A DNA stretch of 64,000 bases from Hydrogenophaga sp. IBVHS1 (GTDB lineage: Bacteria; Pseudomonadota; Gammaproteobacteria; Burkholderiales; Burkholderiaceae_C): the NCBI RefSeq assembly GCF_002127265.1, contig NZ_NFUU01000001.1:1488001-1552000 (forward strand). The letters are read 5' to 3'. The notes under the pieces were generated by a model, which was given only the letters and a program-made list of their open reading frames with translations, did no database searches and was not told the DNA's origin. The stretch's first letter is position 1, and every line of letters begins with the position of its first letter. This document shows positions 13,317 to 21,683 of this stretch, one piece after another. Both the position numbers and the translations under genes were made by a program.

Positions 13317-14363
13317 TTACGCCTTCTTGCCGTGTTTGGCGATGAGTGACTTGGCGGTCTCCAGCAGCTGTTTGCCGTTGAAGCCCCGCTTGTCCATGTC
13401 CTGCACCCACTCCACTTCCACCAGACGCGCCTTGCGGCGGAATTCCTGCGCTTCAGCGGCGGGGATGGTGTAGATGGTGTTGCCTTGCTTCACGGCCTGC
13501 TCGCGGCCCGGGCCGTCGCCGGCCTGCTGAACCTTGCCCAGCCAGCCGGAGGTCTCGATACCGGAATTCTTGTCGATCACGGCCTTGAGATCGGCGGGCA
13601 GCGAAGCGTATTTGTTGCGGTTCATCGCCATCACGAAAGTGGTGGTGTAGAGCGCGCCGCCAGCGGGATCGAACTCGCTGTGGAACTTGGTGAGTTCGTG
13701 CACCTTCACCGAAGGCACCACTTCCCAGGGAATCACGCAGCCATCGATCACGCCCTTGGAGAGCGCATCGGGAATCTGCGGCAGCGGCATGCCCACGGGC
13801 GTGGCGCCCAGGTAGCCGAGCATCTTGGTGATCTGGCGGGTGGGGCCGCGCACCTTGGAGCCACGCAGGTCTTCGGCGGTCTTGATCTGCTTGCTGCGCA
13901 TGTGGAACATGCCCGGGCCGTGCACCTGCAGGGCAATGGGGTGCGTGTCCTTGAACTCGTCCTGGGCGACGGTCTGCACATATTCCCAATAGGCCCTGGA
14001 GGTGGCTTCGGCGTTGTTCATCATGAAAGGCAGCTCGAAGGCTTCGATGCGGGGGAAGCGGCCTGGCGTGTTGCCCGGCAGAGTCCACACAATGTCGACC
14101 ACGCCATCGCGCGCCTGGTCGTACAACTGGGCTGGCGATCCACCGAGTTGCATGGCGGGGTAGCCTTCAAACTTGATGCGACCACCCGAGTCTTTCTCGA
14201 CCTTGTCCATCCACGCCTTGTGCATGTTGAGCCACACATTGGATTGCGGGGCCATGAAGGTGTGGAACTTGAGCGTGACGCTTTGCTGCGCCAGGCTGGC
14301 GAAGGCGGGCGCGCCAAGGGCCACGGCGGCGCCGGACTGGAGCAGGGTTCTGCGTTGGATCAT
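13317..14363 (-). CDS. TRAP transporter substrate-binding protein (DctP family), orphan
   Basis: The 348-residue periplasmic protein begins with a twin-arginine-like signal (MIQRRTLLQSGAAVALGAPA, likely cleaved before QQSVTLKF). It has the DctP fold markers, including LRGSKVRGPTRQITKMLGYLGATPVGMP, where the Arg binds the substrate carboxylate. TRAP systems take up organic acids using an ion gradient, but no small or large permease gene lies nearby, so it must share a distant permease or has another role. The start has AGGAG eight bases upstream. It follows the FAH-family gene on the same strand after 100 bases and has its own terminator. Confidence 0.88.
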   Translation of the reverse strand: MIQRRTLLQSGAAVALGAPAFASLAQQSVTLKFHTFMAPQSNVWLNMHKAWMDKVEKDSGGRIKFEGYPAMQLGGSPAQLYDQARDGVVDIVWTLPGNTPGRFPRIEAFELPFMMNNAEATSRAYWEYVQTVAQDEFKDTHPIALQVHGPGMFHMRSKQIKTAEDLRGSKVRGPTRQITKMLGYLGATPVGMPLPQIPDALSKGVIDGCVIPWEVVPSVKVHELTKFHSEFDPAGGALYTTTFVMAMNRNKYASLPADLKAVIDKNSGIETSGWLGKVQQAGDGPGREQAVKQGNTIYTIPAAEAQEFRRKARLVEVEWVQDMDKRGFNGKQLLETAKSLIAKHGKKA

Positions 14364-14463
14364 GGTGGAGTTCTCCTGGGTGCTATGAAAAAAGTGGCGC
14401 AAGCATACGCCGGGGCGCGGGGATTGCTGAGAGGTCTAACCCTCAGTGGGAGGCTCAACGAAG

Positions 14464-15168
14464 TCAGACAACCTTCACCGAGATGGGTGTGAGGCCGTCG
14501 ACGCCACCGTTCATGGTGTCGCCGCGCACCACCGCAGCCACGCCCTCCGGGGTGCCGGTGTAGATCAGGTCGCCGGGCTGCAGTTCCCAGGCCTGCGACA
14601 AGGCTTCGATGGTCTCGGCCACATTCCAGATCAGCTTGGCCACGTTGCTGCGCTGGCGGTCTGTGCCATTCACCTGCACCCAGATAGCGGCGTTGTTCAC
14701 GTCGCCCGCCTGCGCGGCCAGCGTGATGGGTCCGATGGGGGCGGACTGGTCGTAGGCTTTGCCAATGCACCAGGGGCGGCCTTGCTTTTTCATGTCGGTC
14801 TGCAGGTCGCGTCGCGTCATGTCCAGGCCCACGGCATAGCCGTAGATGTGCTTGGCGGCATCAGCGGCCTTGATGTTTTTGCCGCCGGTTCCGATGGCCA
14901 CCACCAGCTCGATTTCGTGGTGCAGGTTGGACGTGAGCGTGGGGTAGGGGATGGTGGCGGTCTGGCCGGTCTCGGCCACCACAATGGCATCGGCCGGCTT
15001 GAGGAAGAAGAAAGGCGGCTCGCGGCCGGTGAAGCCCATTTCTTTCGCGTGTTCTTCGTAGTTGCGGCCCACGCAGTAGATGCGGTGCACGGCGAAACGC
15101 TCGGCGCGCCCCAGCACGGGCACGCTGACGACGGCGGGAGGGGCAAAGGCGTAGGTGGGTTCGGTCAT
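14464..15168 (-). CDS. Fumarylacetoacetate hydrolase family protein
   Basis: The 234-residue protein has the FAH fold markers: [20 protein letters not shown] near residues 25-44, the metal-ligand region [10 protein letters not shown], and the C-terminal [18 protein letters not shown]. The family includes fumarylpyruvate hydrolase, acylpyruvase and 2-oxo-hept-3-ene-dioate hydratase/decarboxylases, which act late in aromatic ring breakdown. Length and motifs resemble YcgM-type acylpyruvases most. It follows the ferredoxin gene by 50 bases on the same strand, so it may process a product of the nearby Rieske oxygenase. Confidence 0.88.
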
Positions 15169-15218
15169 GTGGGTGTGGCGGGAAGAACAGGGGAAGCGAA
15201 ACGGGGAATTCAGTGTAC

Positions 15219-15542
15219 TCAGTGTTGCGTGGCGGGCAGCCGAACCACCAGGCCATCCAGTTCAGGCAGCAACCGAATCTGGCACGAAAGCCGGCTCTCA
15301 GGCTCCACCGGACTCGATGCGAAGTCCAGCATGTCGACCTCGTCCGCTACTGGCGGTGGAAGCCGGCTCGCCCACGTTGGATCCACGATCACATGGCAGG
15401 TGGCACAGGTCAGCGAGCCACCGCAATCGGCCTCGATGCCAGCCACGTTGGCGTCCACCGCGGCTTTCATGAGGCTCTGGCCAGGCTCGGCCTGGATGTC
15501 CTGCACGCGCTCGTCGGCGTAGATGAATCGGATCTTGATCAT
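15219..15542 (-). CDS. [2Fe-2S] ferredoxin, adrenodoxin type
   Basis: The 107-residue protein has the adrenodoxin/putidaredoxin cluster pattern: Cys40, Cys46 and Cys49 ([13 protein letters not shown]), then Cys87 (SRLSCQI). Ferredoxins of this kind feed single electrons to cytochrome P450s and to some single-component Rieske oxygenases, for example the dicamba demethylase system. Nine bases separate it from the glutamine-synthetase-like gene upstream, and the Rieske gene heads the same run, so it is the likely electron donor of that oxygenase. No matching reductase gene is present in the window. Confidence 0.92.
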
Positions 15543-15551
15543 GGTGTGGGT

Positions 15552-17030
15552 TCAGGTTCGGCTGAAGTACTCGCGGCGTTCAAAATCGGTCTTGTCCTCG
15601 GCCTGTGCGTGGCGATCGATCTCGCTCTGCTTGATCCGGCTGAAGTAGCGAACAAAACCATCGCCCAGGCCCTCGCAAAGAGCGGCGTCCGCTTGCAGCG
15701 CCGCAATGCCTTCTGCCAGCGAAGTGGGAATCTTCTCACCCCCCTCGGCATACGGTGTTTCAGAAGCGGCCGGTGGGTTCAGGCCGCGCGCGATGCCGTC
15801 GAGCCCGGCGTGGATCTGCGCGGCCATGTAGAGGTAGGGATTGGCGGCGGGCTCACCCACCCGGTTTTCGATGCGGGTGGCGTTGTCGCCGGCAGCACCC
15901 ACCACGCGCAGCATGGCGCCCCGGTTGTCCTGGCCCCACAGCACGGCCTGCGGCGCCAACGCATTGGGCCGGAAGCGGGCAAAGCCGTTGATGGTGGGTG
16001 TGCACAACACGGTCATGCCGCGCGCATGCGCCAGCAAGCCCGCAAGCCAGCGTGCGCCCGTGTCCGAGAGCGTGTGTGTGGCATCGGCTTTCGTGGTGCC
16101 GCCGGCCGAGGCGTCGCGGACAAAGGCGTTGCCGCCCGTCTTGAAGTCTACCAGCGACTGGTGCAGGTGCCAGCCGCTGGACATGATGTTTGGAAACGGT
16201 GGGCGGCACATGAAGGTGGCGTGGTAACCAGCGCGGCGCAGCGCCTGGCGCACGCCGTTGCGGAACAGCACCATCTGGTCAGCGGCGGTGAGCGCGTCGG
16301 TGGCGTCGAAAACGGCTTCCACCTGGCTGGGCCCGAGCTCGATCTCCAGCGATTGCAATGGCAGGCCCAGCGCCTGCGCGGTGCGCTGCACGATGCGCAG
16401 CGGTTCATCGGCCAGATCGGCCATGGCCTCGGCTTGCAGGTTGTAGCCGGGGTGGATCATCTCCACGCTCGGTGGCAGCCCCGGCCATGCGGCCAGGTCG
16501 GGGTCGAGCTGAGGTCGGGTGTCGGTGATGCGGTAGATGTGAAATTCGACCTCGAGCCCCGTTTTCAGACCGTAGCCCACCTTGGCCAACCGATCCAGCG
16601 CCGACTGCAGCACGCGTCGCGTGTCGAGTGGCACCGGCGTGCCGTCGGCGAACCAGGGCTGGCAGCGCAGCCAGCCCGTGCGTTCGAGCCAGGGCAGGGT
16701 GGTAAAGCTATCCGGGTCGGGCAGCAGCATGAGGTTGGCCGCGCCGGCAAAGCCAGGCAGATCGTCGGCAGCGCCGGGCTCAAACACCTTCCAGGCGGTG
16801 CGGTCGGCGGTGTCCTTGAGCATGAGCGTGCCCACCATGCCCACACCGTCGCGCAGGGCGCGCACCGCGGCGGCGGCGGTGAGCGTCTTGCCGCGCAGCA
16901 TGCCGTGCGTGTCGCACCAGCCGAAACGCACCAGCTCGATCCCGCTGGCTTCGATCAGGCGGGCGGTGCGCAGGCAGGCTATTTCGCGAACTGCGGTGTG
17001 ATTGCCGCAGCGTTCGGCGAAATGGGTCAT
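15552..17030 (-). CDS. Glutamine synthetase-like gamma-glutamyl ligase
   Basis: The 492-residue protein has the glutamine synthetase layout. The N-terminal beta-grasp reads LVRFGWCDTHGMLRGKTL. Catalytic-domain motifs are ELGPSQVEAVFDATDA, SSGWHLHQSLVD (the ATP/metal His loop) and RIENRVGEPAANPYLYMAAQ. Enzymes of this branch ligate glutamate to amines such as methylamine, polyamines, isopropylamine or aniline rather than to ammonia. Its ATG overlaps the stop of the Rieske gene (ATGA), and the ferredoxin follows at once, so ligase and oxygenase are made together. That suggests an amine substrate is gamma-glutamylated around an oxygenation step. The identity of the amine is unknown. Confidence 0.85.
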   Translation of the reverse strand: MTHFAERCGNHTAVREIACLRTARLIEASGIELVRFGWCDTHGMLRGKTLTAAAAVRALRDGVGMVGTLMLKDTADRTAWKVFEPGAADDLPGFAGAANLMLLPDPDSFTTLPWLERTGWLRCQPWFADGTPVPLDTRRVLQSALDRLAKVGYGLKTGLEVEFHIYRITDTRPQLDPDLAAWPGLPPSVEMIHPGYNLQAEAMADLADEPLRIVQRTAQALGLPLQSLEIELGPSQVEAVFDATDALTAADQMVLFRNGVRQALRRAGYHATFMCRPPFPNIMSSGWHLHQSLVDFKTGGNAFVRDASAGGTTKADATHTLSDTGARWLAGLLAHARGMTVLCTPTINGFARFRPNALAPQAVLWGQDNRGAMLRVVGAAGDNATRIENRVGEPAANPYLYMAAQIHAGLDGIARGLNPPAASETPYAEGGEKIPTSLAEGIAALQADAALCEGLGDGFVRYFSRIKQSEIDRHAQAEDKTDFERREYFSRT

Positions 17031-18400
17031 TTGGCGCCCGCTGTTTCGGAGTGTCCCGTGTACCAGGGAGCGTTTTCGCGCTTGGCGCGCACGCCGTCCT
17101 GCCACCAGGTTTGCCAGTCCTTTGCGGGCGCGATGCCGTCCACGGTGTCGGGGCCATGGATCGCACCGTGCAGCGCGGCATCGGCGATGCCCGGTGGTGT
17201 GCCGCCTTGCTCCACCGTGTCGATCGCCTGTTGCAGCAGGCGCCGGTTGGCCATGATCACGCGGTCGGTGGTGCCCAGGTGTTCGCGCGTGCGGTCCTGT
17301 ATGGCGCCCATGCTTTCGCAGGCCCACTGGTCGTGCACGTTGATGTCGTCCTCGCCCATGCCGAGGTAGGTGCTGGTCTGCTGTTCTTCGGCGCTGAAGC
17401 CCCACTGGTTCTGGCGGCCTGACTTCGGGATGTAGTCGGGCAGGGTGACGGCGGACAGGCGCTGGTTGCGCATCGCTTCCTTGTCCACCGGGCCGCCGAA
17501 GCTGGTGAAAAAGGCGTACCAGTAGTTGTGCGTGTCGTCCACCGGCACATGCATCTGCGTGATGGTCATGGTTTCCGACAGCGGAATCACGAAAGTCTGC
17601 GGGAACACGGCGTTGGTGATGCGCACGTGGGTGAGGTCTTCCGTCATGGGACGCAGGGCGGTGAGCTGCAGGCCATACGGTTTGGCCTCGAACGAAATCT
17701 GCGGCTGGCCGAACTCGCGCATCACACGCGTCATGGGCCAGCGCTCGCCACCCACATCGCCCGCGCTGGCGCCGCGAAACTGTTTGCCATAGCTGTCTTC
17801 CAGCGAGGCGTCGTTGAAGAAGCGGTGCAGGTAGGAAGCATGCGCCGGGTCAATGCCCACTTCGAACGACTGCAGCCAGTTGCAGTGCCACAGGCCCTTG
17901 AAAGCGAAGGTGTGGGAGGCCGGTGCGGCAAAGCAGTCCAGCGCCGGGAGCGGTGGCGGTGTCTGGCCTTCTGGGCCGAGCCAGGCAAACAGCACGCCGC
18001 TGGCAGTTTGCAGCGGGTAGCTGCGCTGGCGAATTCGGTTGCACAGCGTGCTGCCCGCGGGCTCGGCTGGCGTCTCGATGCATTGGCCTGTGGTGTCGAA
18101 CTTCCAGCCGTGGAAAGGGCAGCGCAGGCCATCGCCTTCGTTGCGGCCGAAGGCGAGATCGGCGCCTCGGTGCGGGCAGTCGCGGTCGAGCAGACCGTAT
18201 TGGCCTTGTGCATCGCGGAACAACACGAAGTTCTGCCCCAGCAGGCGCACCGGCTTCACCGGGCGCACGGCCATGCGCGGGTCCAGCGCCGGGTCGAACT
18301 CGTCGAGCAAGGCCACGGGCTGCCAGTAGCGGCGCAACAGTTCACCCCCCGGTGTGCCCGGTCCCACCTGGGTGAGTCGTTGATTGAGTTCGGCTTTCAT
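17027..18400 (-). CDS. Rieske non-haem iron oxygenase, large subunit (phthalate 4,5-dioxygenase type)
   Basis: The 457-residue protein has an N-terminal Rieske domain with Cys75-His77 and Cys94-His97 (CPHRGADLAFGRNEGDGLRC). The catalytic domain carries the mononuclear iron ligands Asp184, His187 and His192 in DPAHASYLH. The C terminus contains NVHDQWACESMGAIQDR, as in phthalate 4,5-dioxygenase and related single-subunit oxygenases and demethylases. No small subunit is encoded, as expected for this class. It heads the ligase/ferredoxin/FAH run and diverges from a GntR regulator. A ribosome site (GGAG) lies seven bases before the ATG. Confidence 0.9.
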   Translation of the reverse strand: MKAELNQRLTQVGPGTPGGELLRRYWQPVALLDEFDPALDPRMAVRPVKPVRLLGQNFVLFRDAQGQYGLLDRDCPHRGADLAFGRNEGDGLRCPFHGWKFDTTGQCIETPAEPAGSTLCNRIRQRSYPLQTASGVLFAWLGPEGQTPPPLPALDCFAAPASHTFAFKGLWHCNWLQSFEVGIDPAHASYLHRFFNDASLEDSYGKQFRGASAGDVGGERWPMTRVMREFGQPQISFEAKPYGLQLTALRPMTEDLTHVRITNAVFPQTFVIPLSETMTITQMHVPVDDTHNYWYAFFTSFGGPVDKEAMRNQRLSAVTLPDYIPKSGRQNQWGFSAEEQQTSTYLGMGEDDINVHDQWACESMGAIQDRTREHLGTTDRVIMANRRLLQQAIDTVEQGGTPPGIADAALHGAIHGPDTVDGIAPAKDWQTWWQDGVRAKRENAPWYTGHSETAGAK

Positions 18401-18426: not shown

Positions 18427-18442
18427 AAACGGTATACCGTTT
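18427..18442. promoter_or_regulatory. GntR/FCD operator, perfect 16-bp palindrome
   Basis: AAACGGTATACCGTTT reads the same on both strands. The core GGTATACC matches the GTATAC-centred sites of the FadR/FCD group of GntR regulators. It lies between the Rieske gene and the GntR gene, 27 bases from each coding start, where a bound dimer could control both. A second TGTACA core lies 11 bases to the right. Confidence 0.8.
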
Positions 18443-18468: not shown

Positions 18469-19188
18469 ATGAGCTTGCAAGACACCGTTTTGATGCAGTT
18501 GCGCGACCTGATCCTGAGCGGTGGGTTCGAGCCCGGCCAGCGGCTGGCCGAGCAGCAACTGGCCGAACGCCTGGGCGCCTCGCGCACGCCGGTGCGCGCC
18601 GCGCTGGTCACGCTGGAGCAGGAAGGCCTGGTGGAGGCGAACGACACCGGCAAGTACCTTGTGCGCCAGTTCACCGCACAGGAAGTGACCGACGCCATCG
18701 CCGTGCGCGGGCACCTCGAAGGCATGGCCGCTCGGCTGGTGGCTGAGCACGGTGTGTCGCGACAGTTGCAGGGTCAATTGCAGGCGTGCCTCGAGGAAGG
18801 CGATCGGCTGCTGGCCGACAACCCGCTCACCATCGAAAGCTACGCCGCCTACTCGGTAATGAACGATCGCTTTCATGCCTTGCTGCTCGAGGCATGCGGC
18901 AACCGGGCCCTGCAGCGCGCCGTGGCGCTCAACGACAAGCTGCCGTTTGCGCCCGCTTCGGCGATGCTGCCCATGCAGGGCACCTTGACGATGGACCGCG
19001 ACTGGATGCTTTACGCGCACCGCCAGCACCACATGCTGGTCGACGCGCTGCTGCGCGGTGAAAGCGCCCGGGCGCAGGCACTTGCGGTCGAGCACACCGA
19101 GGTCGCGCAAATGAACATGCGCCTCGCTCTGGAGCGCCGCACGGACTCTGAACGCGTCTTGCCCGCCATCCGACTCGTGGTGGGGTGA
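18469..19188 (+). CDS. GntR family transcriptional regulator (FCD subfamily)
   Basis: The 239-residue protein has an N-terminal winged helix-turn-helix (LRDLILSGGFEPGQRLAEQQ, then LGASRTPVRAALVTLEQEGL) and an all-helical FCD ligand-binding domain from about residue 80, with the metal-binding His-rich helix ends (NDRFHALLLEACGN, HRQHHMLVDALLRGE). FCD regulators usually respond to organic acids and repress neighbouring catabolic genes. It is divergent from the Rieske oxygenase operon, with the perfect palindrome between them, so it most likely controls that operon and itself. Confidence 0.9.
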   Translation: MSLQDTVLMQLRDLILSGGFEPGQRLAEQQLAERLGASRTPVRAALVTLEQEGLVEANDTGKYLVRQFTAQEVTDAIAVRGHLEGMAARLVAEHGVSRQLQGQLQACLEEGDRLLADNPLTIESYAAYSVMNDRFHALLLEACGNRALQRAVALNDKLPFAPASAMLPMQGTLTMDRDWMLYAHRQHHMLVDALLRGESARAQALAVEHTEVAQMNMRLALERRTDSERVLPAIRLVVG

Positions 19189-19215: not shown

Positions 19216-20781
19216 ATGTCGCCCACCAACGAGCTCGCTGCCCCGACCGGCCTCACGCTGCGGCGCGTGGCCATCGACACCTACCATGAGAACGTGGCCT
19301 ATCTGCACCGCGACTGCGCCGTGGTGCGGGCCGAAGGCTTCCAGGCGCTGTCCAAGGTGGAGGTGCGGGCCAACGGACGGCGCATCCTGGCCACGCTCAA
19401 CGTGGTGGACGACCAGGCTATCGTGGGCTGCCACGAGATCGGCGTGTCCGAGGATGCCTTTGCCCGGCTTGAAGTGGCTGGTGGCCACCCCGCCTCGGTG
19501 TCGCCGGCCGAGCCGCCCGAGTCCATCCCCGCGCTGTTTCGCAAGATCAATGGTGAGCGACTGGGGCGCGACGACTTCCGCCACATCATTCGCGACATCG
19601 CCGAGTTGCGCTATTCCAAGATCGAACTCACCGCCTTTGTGGTGGCCTGCAACCGCAGCGAGCTCGACCGCGAGGAGGTCTATTTCCTGACCGAAGCCAT
19701 GGTGGCCAGCGGCCGGCGGCTCGACTGGAACGAAACCCTGGTGGTGGACAAGCACTGCATCGGCGGCATTCCGGGCAACCGCACCTCGATGCTGGTCGTG
19801 CCCATCGTGGCGGCCCATGGCCTGGTGTTCCCCAAGACCTCGTCGCGTGCCATCACCTCGCCCGCCGGCACGGCGGACTCCATGGCCGTGCTGGCCAACG
19901 TGGAGCTGCCGTTCGAACAGCTCACCGGGATCGTGCGCCAGCACCATGGCTGTCTGGCCTGGGGCGGTACGGCCCAGCTTTCGCCGGCCGATGACGTGCT
20001 GATTTCGGTAGAGCGTCCGCTGTCCATCGACTCACCCGGCCAGATGGTGGCCTCCATCCTGTCGAAGAAGATCGCCGCCGGCGCCACGCACCTGGTGCTC
20101 GACATCCCCATCGGCCCCACGGCCAAGGTGCGCTCCATGCCAGAGGCCCAGCGGCTGCGCCGCTTGTTTGAATACGTGGCGCAGCGCATGCACCTATCGC
20201 TCGATGTGGTGATCACCGATGGCCGCCAGCCCGTGGGCCGTGGGGTGGGGCCGGTGCTGGAGGCCCGTGACGTGATGCAGGTGCTGGAAAACGACCCGCG
20301 CGCGCCGGACGATCTGAGGCAGAAATCGTTGCGGCTGGCCGGGCGGCTGATCGAGTGCAGCCCTGATGTGCGCGGCGGCGAAGGCTTTCGCATCGCGCGC
20401 GACATCCTCGATTCGGGCCGCGCGCTGGCGCAGATGCGGGCGATTGTGCGGGCACAAGGCGACCGCAGTTTTGACCACCACCACCCGGCATTGGGCGCGC
20501 TCACACAGGCGGTGAGGGCGCCCGCCGCCGGTGTGGTCATCGGCATCGACAACCTGCAGATCGCGCAGATTGCCCGCCTGGCAGGTGCTCCCAAGGTGCA
20601 GGGTGCGGGTGTGGATCTGTGCGTCAAACTCGGCCAACAGGTGGCTGCTGGTGACGTGCTCTACAGCGTGTACGCCAGCTACCCGGCCGATCTGGAGTTC
20701 GCGCGCCAGGCCAGCGAGCGCGCCTCCGGTTTCAGCGTGGGCACCGCCGCCCAGGTGCCCCATGTCTTTGTGGAGTTCTGA
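19216..20781 (+). CDS. Thymidine phosphorylase family protein (AMP phosphorylase-like)
   Basis: The 521-residue protein has an extra N-terminal domain of about 90 residues ([20 protein letters not shown]) before the nucleoside phosphorylase core. The core carries the glycine-rich phosphate loop ([19 protein letters not shown], near residues 180-200) and [18 protein letters not shown]. This longer form is the one seen in archaeal AMP phosphorylase, which splits nucleoside monophosphates to a base and ribose 1,5-bisphosphate. Its stop overlaps the start of a PRPP-synthetase-like gene (TGATG), so the two act together. A bacterial nucleotide-salvage role is likely; the exact substrate is inferred. 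Confidence 0.82.
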
Positions 20782-21683
20782 TGTCTCTCTCAAGCAAAAC
20801 CGCTGCCGGTTGTGTGCTGTGTTTCGAGGACGAAACCTCGCTGGCCGGTCAGGCCGCCAGCGCACTCGGCATGGCCCTGGCCGTGGTGGAGCGCCACCGG
20901 TTCCCCGACGGAGAGACGCGCCTGCGCCTGCCAGCCGAGCTGCCCGCGCGCGTGGTGCTGTGGCGCGGTCTGCAACAGCCCAACGAAAAACTGGTGGAGG
21001 TGTTGCTCGCCGCGCAGACCGCGCGCACGCTGGGTGCACAGCAACTCACGCTGGTCTCGCCGTATCTGGCCTATATGCGGCAGGACATCGCCTTCAACCC
21101 CGGGGAGGCGATCAGCCAGCGCATCGTGGGCGCTTTCCTGGCCGGGTTGTTCGACGCCATCATCACGGTGGACCCGCACCTGCACCGCGTGGCCACACTG
21201 CATGAAGCCGTGCCGGTGAAAGATGCGATCGTGCTCAGCGGCGCGCCGCTGCTGGCCGACCACATCGCCACCCAGCGCCAGAACCCGCTGCTGATGGGGC
21301 CGGACGAAGAAGCGCTGCAGTGGGTGGCCCTGGCCGCCGCGCAGCATGGCTGGGACCATGCGGTGTGCCGCAAGACGCGCCATGGCGACCGGGACGTGGG
21401 CATCGAACTGCCCGAACTGCCGGTGGCGGGCCGGGCGGTGGTGCTCATGGACGATGTGGCAAGCTCCGGCCACACGCTGGCGCGTGCGGCCATGAAGCTG
21501 CGCGCGGCGGGCGCGGTCTCGGTCGACGTGGCCGTGACGCATGCGCTGTTTGCCCAGGGCTCGGTACAACTGGTGCGCAGTTCGGGTGTGGGTGAAATCT
21601 GGAGCACCGACTGCATCCCGCATGCCTCCAACGCCGTGAGCATCGTTCCCCAGGTCGTGGCCGCGCTGCAGGGCATCCGGTAG
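20781..21683 (+). CDS. Ribose-phosphate pyrophosphokinase-like protein
   Basis: The 300-residue protein has the PRPP synthetase fold: the flexible-loop region RFPDGETRLRL near residues 40-50, SPYLAYMRQDIAFNPGEAIS near 94-113, VDPHLHR near 133, and the PRPP-binding loop VVLMDDVASSGHTLARAA near 218-235. It is somewhat shorter and more divergent than housekeeping Prs (about 315 residues), so it is probably a paralogue. It is translationally coupled to the AMP-phosphorylase-like gene. A shared route that turns released ribose phosphate back into PRPP for base salvage is the simplest reading. Confidence 0.82.
   Translation: MSLSSKTAAGCVLCFEDETSLAGQAASALGMALAVVERHRFPDGETRLRLPAELPARVVLWRGLQQPNEKLVEVLLAAQTARTLGAQQLTLVSPYLAYMRQDIAFNPGEAISQRIVGAFLAGLFDAIITVDPHLHRVATLHEAVPVKDAIVLSGAPLLADHIATQRQNPLLMGPDEEALQWVALAAAQHGWDHAVCRKTRHGDRDVGIELPELPVAGRAVVLMDDVASSGHTLARAAMKLRAAGAVSVDVAVTHALFAQGSVQLVRSSGVGEIWSTDCIPHASNAVSIVPQVVAALQGIR

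Follow-up and report, generated by a model that had tools for sequence, protein, structure and literature searches.

A sad-type locus of Hydrogenophaga sp. IBVHS1 that probably encodes a deaminating aryl-amine dioxygenase

Organization of the locus

Within the window (the whole stretch of 64,000 nucleotides from Hydrogenophaga sp. IBVHS1 that was analysed), five genes lie in a row on the reverse strand, headed by a single-subunit Rieske oxygenase gene, and a GntR-type regulator gene diverges from them (Table 1). Open reading frames and Pfam matches bore out all five genes of the original prediction, its divergent GntR gene and the ATGA by which the stop of the Rieske gene overlaps the start of the ligase gene. 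An equal four-base overlap, with an ATG or GTG start, is possible in 71 of the 86 same-strand Rieske-ligase pairs among the 94 loci examined (see below). By their coordinates, ligase and ferredoxin genes are 9 bases apart, ferredoxin and FAH genes 50, and FAH and TRAP genes 100. The Rieske protein carries the motifs CxH-x16-CxxH and DxxHxxxxH; the second is present in all 86 Rieske proteins, and the CxH...CxxH pair, with variable spacing, in 82, the remaining four being truncated by the contig start. For the ferredoxin, the top NCBIfam model was ISC ferredoxin (50 bits, under its cut-off). Promoter and terminator scans gave no more signals than shuffled sequences did. Downstream of the GntR gene (19216-21683, forward strand), an AMP/thymidine-phosphorylase-like gene and a PRPP-synthetase-like gene overlap by one base; their homologues occur in 14 and 15 of the 94 loci, respectively.

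Table 1. Features of the locus, in positions of the window.
Feature	Position	Strand	Remarks
Single-subunit Rieske oxygenase (SadA type)	17027..18400	-	457 aa; Pfam Rieske and LigXa_C
Glutamine-synthetase-like gamma-glutamyl arylamine ligase (SadB type)	15552..17030	-	492 aa; Gln-synt_C 237 bits
2Fe-2S ferredoxin (SadD type)	15219..15542	-	Pfam Fer2 38.7 bits
FAH-family hydrolase, probably fumarylpyruvate hydrolase	14464..15168	-	FAA_hydrolase 182 bits
TRAP substrate-binding protein	13317..14363	-	DctP 137 bits; permease genes not adjoining
GntR/FCD regulator, divergent	18469..19188	+	Pfam GntR 61 bits, FCD 50 bits
Palindrome AAACGGTATACCGTTT, candidate operator	18427..18442	.	Between GntR and Rieske genes

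Distribution and conserved core

Among 399 Burkholderiales genomes, 22 (that of the window included) carried the ligase at E<=1e-60. In 21 of these the Rieske gene adjoins the ligase gene by coordinates, in reversed order once (G010), and in the exception, G137, the two are on different contigs; the pairing is therefore not due to chance. As originally predicted, the ligase is thus partnered by a single-subunit Rieske oxygenase, a combination that occurs in both beta- and alphaproteobacteria. For gene content we compared 94 loci: 80 named genome loci (the best 80 of 584 scan-confirmed), 12 plasmid loci (of 77 matching records), one same-genus region and the window. The ligase matched in all 94, the Rieske protein in 88, the ferredoxin in 73, the GntR protein in 40, the TRAP receptor in 39, the FAH hydrolase in 37 and gentisate 1,2-dioxygenase in 22. 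Of the best 80 named loci, 76 contained the Rieske gene, and the other four begin less than 400 bases before the ligase. One Rieske gene adjoining a sad-type ligase, at L041 (G198), has an internal TAA stop, which may reflect decay of this copy or an error in the sequence.

Within the genus, the Rieske gene was found at E<=1e-60 in 54 of 67 Hydrogenophaga genomes (again counting the window's own); of the 44 genomes with completeness of 90% or more and contamination of 5% or less, 41 had it. The top copies in the other 53 were 78–89% identical to that of the window, one being a 128-residue fragment. Ligases at least 82% identical came, among the best 80 of 584 named loci, from five Hydrogenophaga and one Burkholderiales bacterium. 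Hydrogenophaga-titled loci had the TRAP gene in 11 of 11 cases and the FAH gene in 10 (L076 being without it), and at L075 some 4 kb separates the two. The five-gene order is thus largely limited to Hydrogenophaga, so that the expectation of a conserved neighbourhood held only in part; what is retained beyond the genus is a core of Rieske, ligase and ferredoxin genes, often with GntR, to which FAH and TRAP do not belong.

FAH and TRAP genes and the gentisate module

Where do the last two genes come from? At the Polaromonas, Ramlibacter and Caenimonas loci, genes for an ABM protein, a MarR regulator, an FAD oxidoreductase and gentisate 1,2-dioxygenase (522 bits against a cut-off of 442 at the one locus scanned) stand between ferredoxin and FAH, and DctQ and DctM precede the TRAP receptor. 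Of the 22 loci (94 compared) with a gentisate 1,2-dioxygenase homologue, 20 had the FAH gene following it, and in 14 of these 22 a 3-hydroxybenzoate 6-monooxygenase homologue (545 against 459 bits, one scanned) also lay between ferredoxin and FAH. DctM and DctQ homologues were present in 24 and 23 of the 94 loci, respectively. The FAH and TRAP genes of the window thus match the last genes of a 3-hydroxybenzoate/gentisate cluster, but the window region has neither the hydroxylase nor the gentisate dioxygenase gene. The original prediction had placed both in one catabolic unit with the oxygenase, and in relatives they sit instead in the 3-hydroxybenzoate/gentisate module. Since relatives have them closing this module behind the ferredoxin, the pair in the window looks like its likely survivors. 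Alternatively, the module genes could have been inserted in other lineages rather than lost from that of the window; against this, L080 and L082, which keep MarR, ABM and permease genes and in which no hydroxylase or dioxygenase was found, appear to represent an intermediate stage and favour loss.

That all five genes form one pathway, with the product broken down along a gentisate-type route of which the FAH hydrolase is the last step, seems improbable. It would agree with the FAH and TRAP genes following the core in nearly all Hydrogenophaga-titled loci and with the gentisate dioxygenase homologues near the core in 22 of the 94 loci. However, all nine Limnohabitans-titled loci keep Rieske and ligase genes (and eight the ferredoxin) without FAH, TRAP or gentisate genes; the module has its own MarR gene and, in the 14 loci mentioned, its own 3-hydroxybenzoate 6-monooxygenase homologue; and gentisate, a 1,4-diol, cannot arise from 1,2-dihydroxylation. 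The host genome also has gentisate-type genes elsewhere: a gentisate dioxygenase over the cut-off at C1:889922 and, in a row on C3, a MarR-like gene, 3-hydroxybenzoate 6-monooxygenase (700 against 459 bits), a dioxygenase under the gentisate cut-off and an FAH gene.

The ligase and its substrate pocket

We placed 46 of 123 ligases in a tree, among them 34 of the 111 sad-type rows; long branches were flagged, chiefly among the outgroups and at L027. A branch with support of 96/99 had all 34 sampled sad-type ligases on one side; next to them stood three rows of the aniline type with its two-subunit oxygenase (L067 and L156 assigned by annotated neighbours, L028 by tree position) and three others, with GlnA and PuuA further off. 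They thus form a clade separate from the aniline-type ligases. L028 itself (G049:C3) is an aniline-type ligase on a contig of about 105 kb in a same-genus strain that also has a chromosomal sad-type copy. The original prediction had held that the ligase is not an ammonia-using GlnA, and both the tree and the loss of the GlnA flap Glu, whose place is taken by Leu, Met or Asn throughout the 111 sad-type rows (Leu358 in the window), agree. A standard glutamine synthetase that sits here by chance would account for the Pfam Gln-synt_C match, but it is contradicted at the sequence level and can be practically dismissed: the protein is 26% identical to E. coli GlnA, reaches 193 bits against a GlnA cut-off of 429, and GlnA is present elsewhere in the genome.

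The top solved-structure match of the ligase was 8wwu (E 1.8e-100), an entry labelled simply as glutamine synthetase. The loop V68-M81 and the residues E232 and E234 of NpaA1, named in the available text of PMC11335346, fit the 8wwu sequence at an offset of 15, and for this reason we took 8wwu to be NpaA1. The same text lists F75' among the ring-contacting residues (PMC11335346). Positions 72 and 77 of the window ligase correspond to NpaA1 Phe75 and Ser80. Position 72 is Lys in 111 of the 123 aligned ligases, a count that is partly by construction: the sad-type set is what is left after removal of 12 rows from established outgroups and other families (GlnA, PuuA-type, aniline-type and more), and these same 12 lack the Lys. 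Position 77 in the 111 rows is Arg in 105, Lys in five and Gln in one. The three aniline-type rows have Phe, Phe and His at 72 and Ala, Thr and Ala at 77. Basic residues at both positions suggest that the substrate is an anionic aromatic amine. Lys72 may, though, be conserved through shared descent alone, as a 17-row alignment shows 106 of the 492 ligase positions to be invariant.

The original prediction had proposed a gamma-glutamyl conjugate of an amine or N-alkyl substrate; a conjugate of an aromatic amine is the best reading, and the basic loop makes N-alkyl compounds less likely than an anionic aryl amine. The LigXa_C domain of the Rieske protein, which is named after an O-demethylase, would suit a ligase serving an aliphatic or N-alkyl amine with the Rieske enzyme acting as an N- or O-demethylase on the conjugate. 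We consider this very unlikely, as the ligase clade groups with aniline-type ligases and not with PuuA, and the basic loop accords with an anionic ring. In two distant relatives (L152, 19542-19883; L066, 10362-10700), the ligase is followed by a small protein with the annotation 5-carboxymethyl-2-hydroxymuconate isomerase, that of L066 just over the Pfam CHMI cut-off.

Comparison with described systems

The original prediction found no described route that fits, but the sad operon of H. intermedia PBC has the same three components: SadA (Rieske), SadB (glutamine-synthetase-like) and SadD (ferredoxin) participate in the deamination of 4-aminobenzenesulfonate to 4-sulfocatechol (PMC5632844). The available text of that report calls the operon fairly conserved across all Hydrogenophaga genomes reported by 2017, expects its natural substrate to resemble 4-aminobenzenesulfonate in structure and describes the 4-sulfocatechol genes as limited to H. 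intermedia (PMC5632844), this last being a difference from the locus of the window. The window has the Rieske, glutamine-synthetase-like and ferredoxin genes together, as part of a set conserved in the same genus. By gene set and genus, the locus is a member of the described sad type; putative orthology to SadA (WP_009515254), SadB (WP_009515256) and SadD (WP_009515258) is based on these two points and on what the PBC report states. In PBC, as in the window, the reductase gene reportedly lies outside the trio. In work by Gan et al. (2012, Microbiology), E. coli with sadABD and sadC reportedly formed product, and loss of sadB abolished it.

Systems for aniline, chloroaniline and 1-naphthylamine (tdn, dca, atd, npa) likewise place a glutamine-synthetase-like ligase before Rieske oxidation. 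The window ligase is 40.6% identical to the homologue on Delftia pLME1, but pLME1 has a two-subunit oxygenase, an amidotransferase-like gene and a reductase, and aniline-type ligases have Phe or His in place of Lys72 in the three rows compared. We rejected an aniline-type operon, with no beta-subunit gene among the five genes and no GAT homologue within 30 kb. A dicamba-type demethylase was also rejected: a ligase is present, and DdmC came fifth (E 4.5e-16) among the PDB matches of the Rieske protein. Also comparable is a pair on pSA3 of the sulfanilate degrader Novosphingobium resinovorum SA1, whose Rieske and ligase proteins are 55.6% and 44.5% identical to those of the window and whose ligase shares both basic residues. 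It differs in having a maleylacetate reductase gene 2 kb away, transposase genes nearby, and ferredoxin and reductase genes some 4 kb behind the ligase.

A search of 30 kb around the window locus found no homologue of a ferredoxin reductase or a gamma-glutamyl hydrolase, consistent with both having been reported missing from the locus at the outset. Elsewhere in the genome there are two Reductase_C matches, at C1:2867048 and C3:402077, the second of which has a P450-related gene nearby. Peptidase_C26 gave five matches in the genome, of which two are strong. Among the plasmid loci (12 of 77 matching records), seven had a reductase homologue of their own.

A probable reaction scheme and a candidate operator

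Taken together, we consider it quite probable that the locus encodes a deaminating aryl-amine dioxygenase of the sad type. For the host, we infer the following chemical steps. At the expense of ATP, the ligase would form an amide between the gamma-carboxyl of glutamate and the amino nitrogen of an anionic aromatic amine. With electrons arriving through the ferredoxin and a reductase coded elsewhere, the Rieske oxygenase would then dihydroxylate the ring carbon that bears the nitrogen and the one next to it, and the product would shed the amide as glutamine to leave a catechol-type diol. With p-aminobenzoate, which we regard as the most likely natural substrate, this would be protocatechuate for a 4,5-dioxygenase.

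The regulation is read from the intergenic region, where a perfect palindrome of 16 bases contains the only GGTATACC of the window. This sequence was present in 19 of 38 GntR-Rieske regions and occurred 26 times in 1.73 Mb overall. At least 11 of 14 matches to the 14-base core of the window were found in 29 of the 38 divergent regions, which are related and hence not independent, against nine of 1021 stretches drawn at random from these loci. The nine regions without such a match were L063, L065, L070, L082, L084, L101, L103, L104 and L138, of which L070 and L084 are from Hydrogenophaga. The palindrome is a candidate GntR operator, at which the GntR protein would probably repress the operon.

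The natural substrate

To compare plasmid neighbours we used 10 loci, two of the 12 fetched (77 matching records) being left out as aniline-type; the queries came from L064 and L154, both of which are counted. Near the pair there was a nitroreductase homologue in four (L062, L063 in two pieces, L064 and L154), PnbB (4-hydroxylaminobenzoate lyase) in three (L062, L063 and L064) and a PcaK-like transporter in three (L062, L063 and L154). The PnbB of L063 is over the Pfam cut-off; the transporter scored best on PcaK, under the PcaK cut-off. No homologue of any of the three was found in the DNA of the named loci (best 80 of 584). In the host genome, a search covering LigA of protocatechuate 4,5-dioxygenase found it over the cut-off. 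These neighbours and the host LigA therefore point to p-aminobenzoate as the natural substrate, an identification that we make tentatively. If it is correct, gamma-glutamyl-p-aminobenzoate would be dioxygenated to protocatechuate and glutamine. With similar caution, the sad-type operon could be a widespread route for natural p-aminobenzoate, e.g. from folate breakdown, with Lys72 and Arg77 reading the carboxylate and the use of 4-aminobenzenesulfonate a by-product.

Counting against p-aminobenzoate, PnbB-type proteins (PF16155) are also found in box benzoate loci, according to the available text of PMC6449761. Among Burkholderiales genomes, PnbB was mildly enriched with the Rieske gene (4 of 23 Rieske-positive genomes at E<=1e-130 against 11 of 376 others, p 0.0075), in counts made by hand that drop one genome with PnbB under the cut-off and place among the others seven genomes whose Rieske matches reach no further than about E 1e-60 to 1e-67. 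The two genes were not close together in any of the four double-positive genomes; in G350 they share a contig, about 67 kb apart. A literature search over titles and abstract openings, with most subscription journals outside its scope, found no description of p-aminobenzoate glutamylation, and the published main text on the mab 3-aminobenzoate cluster has no mention of glutam- or Rieske words.

The same machinery may instead serve a sulfonated or other anionic arylamine, or 3-aminobenzoate, a real possibility, though one that we hold to be less likely than not. 4-Aminobenzenesulfonate is the only substrate that we found shown for the sad operon, in the available text of PMC5632844; the SA1 homologue adjoins a maleylacetate reductase gene; and the basic residues would fit any anionic ring. 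The host, moreover, may be a p-aminobenzoate auxotroph, because its sole PabB-family match (G000:C3:5878-6954, 359 residues) scores best as TrpE, under both cut-offs, and no separate PabB was found in the genome. Such an auxotroph would be an odd owner of a p-aminobenzoate-degrading enzyme, which counts against that substrate. Against the sulfonated alternative stand the restriction of the 4-sulfocatechol genes to H. intermedia, the absence of PcaH over the cut-off from all 67 Hydrogenophaga genomes (a type II enzyme might score lower) and the plasmid neighbours, which point to benzoic acids.

Why the compared strains retain an operon for a dye intermediate was left as a question in the available text of the 2017 Hydrogenophaga paper (PMC5632844). 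The gene set is already described in the genus, and p-aminobenzoate is the best candidate for its natural substrate. The residue signature, the PnbB, nitroreductase and PcaK-like neighbours and the palindrome narrow the question of retention to a few assays, and the Lys72/Arg77 signature could help to separate anionic from neutral aryl-amine ligases in genomes.
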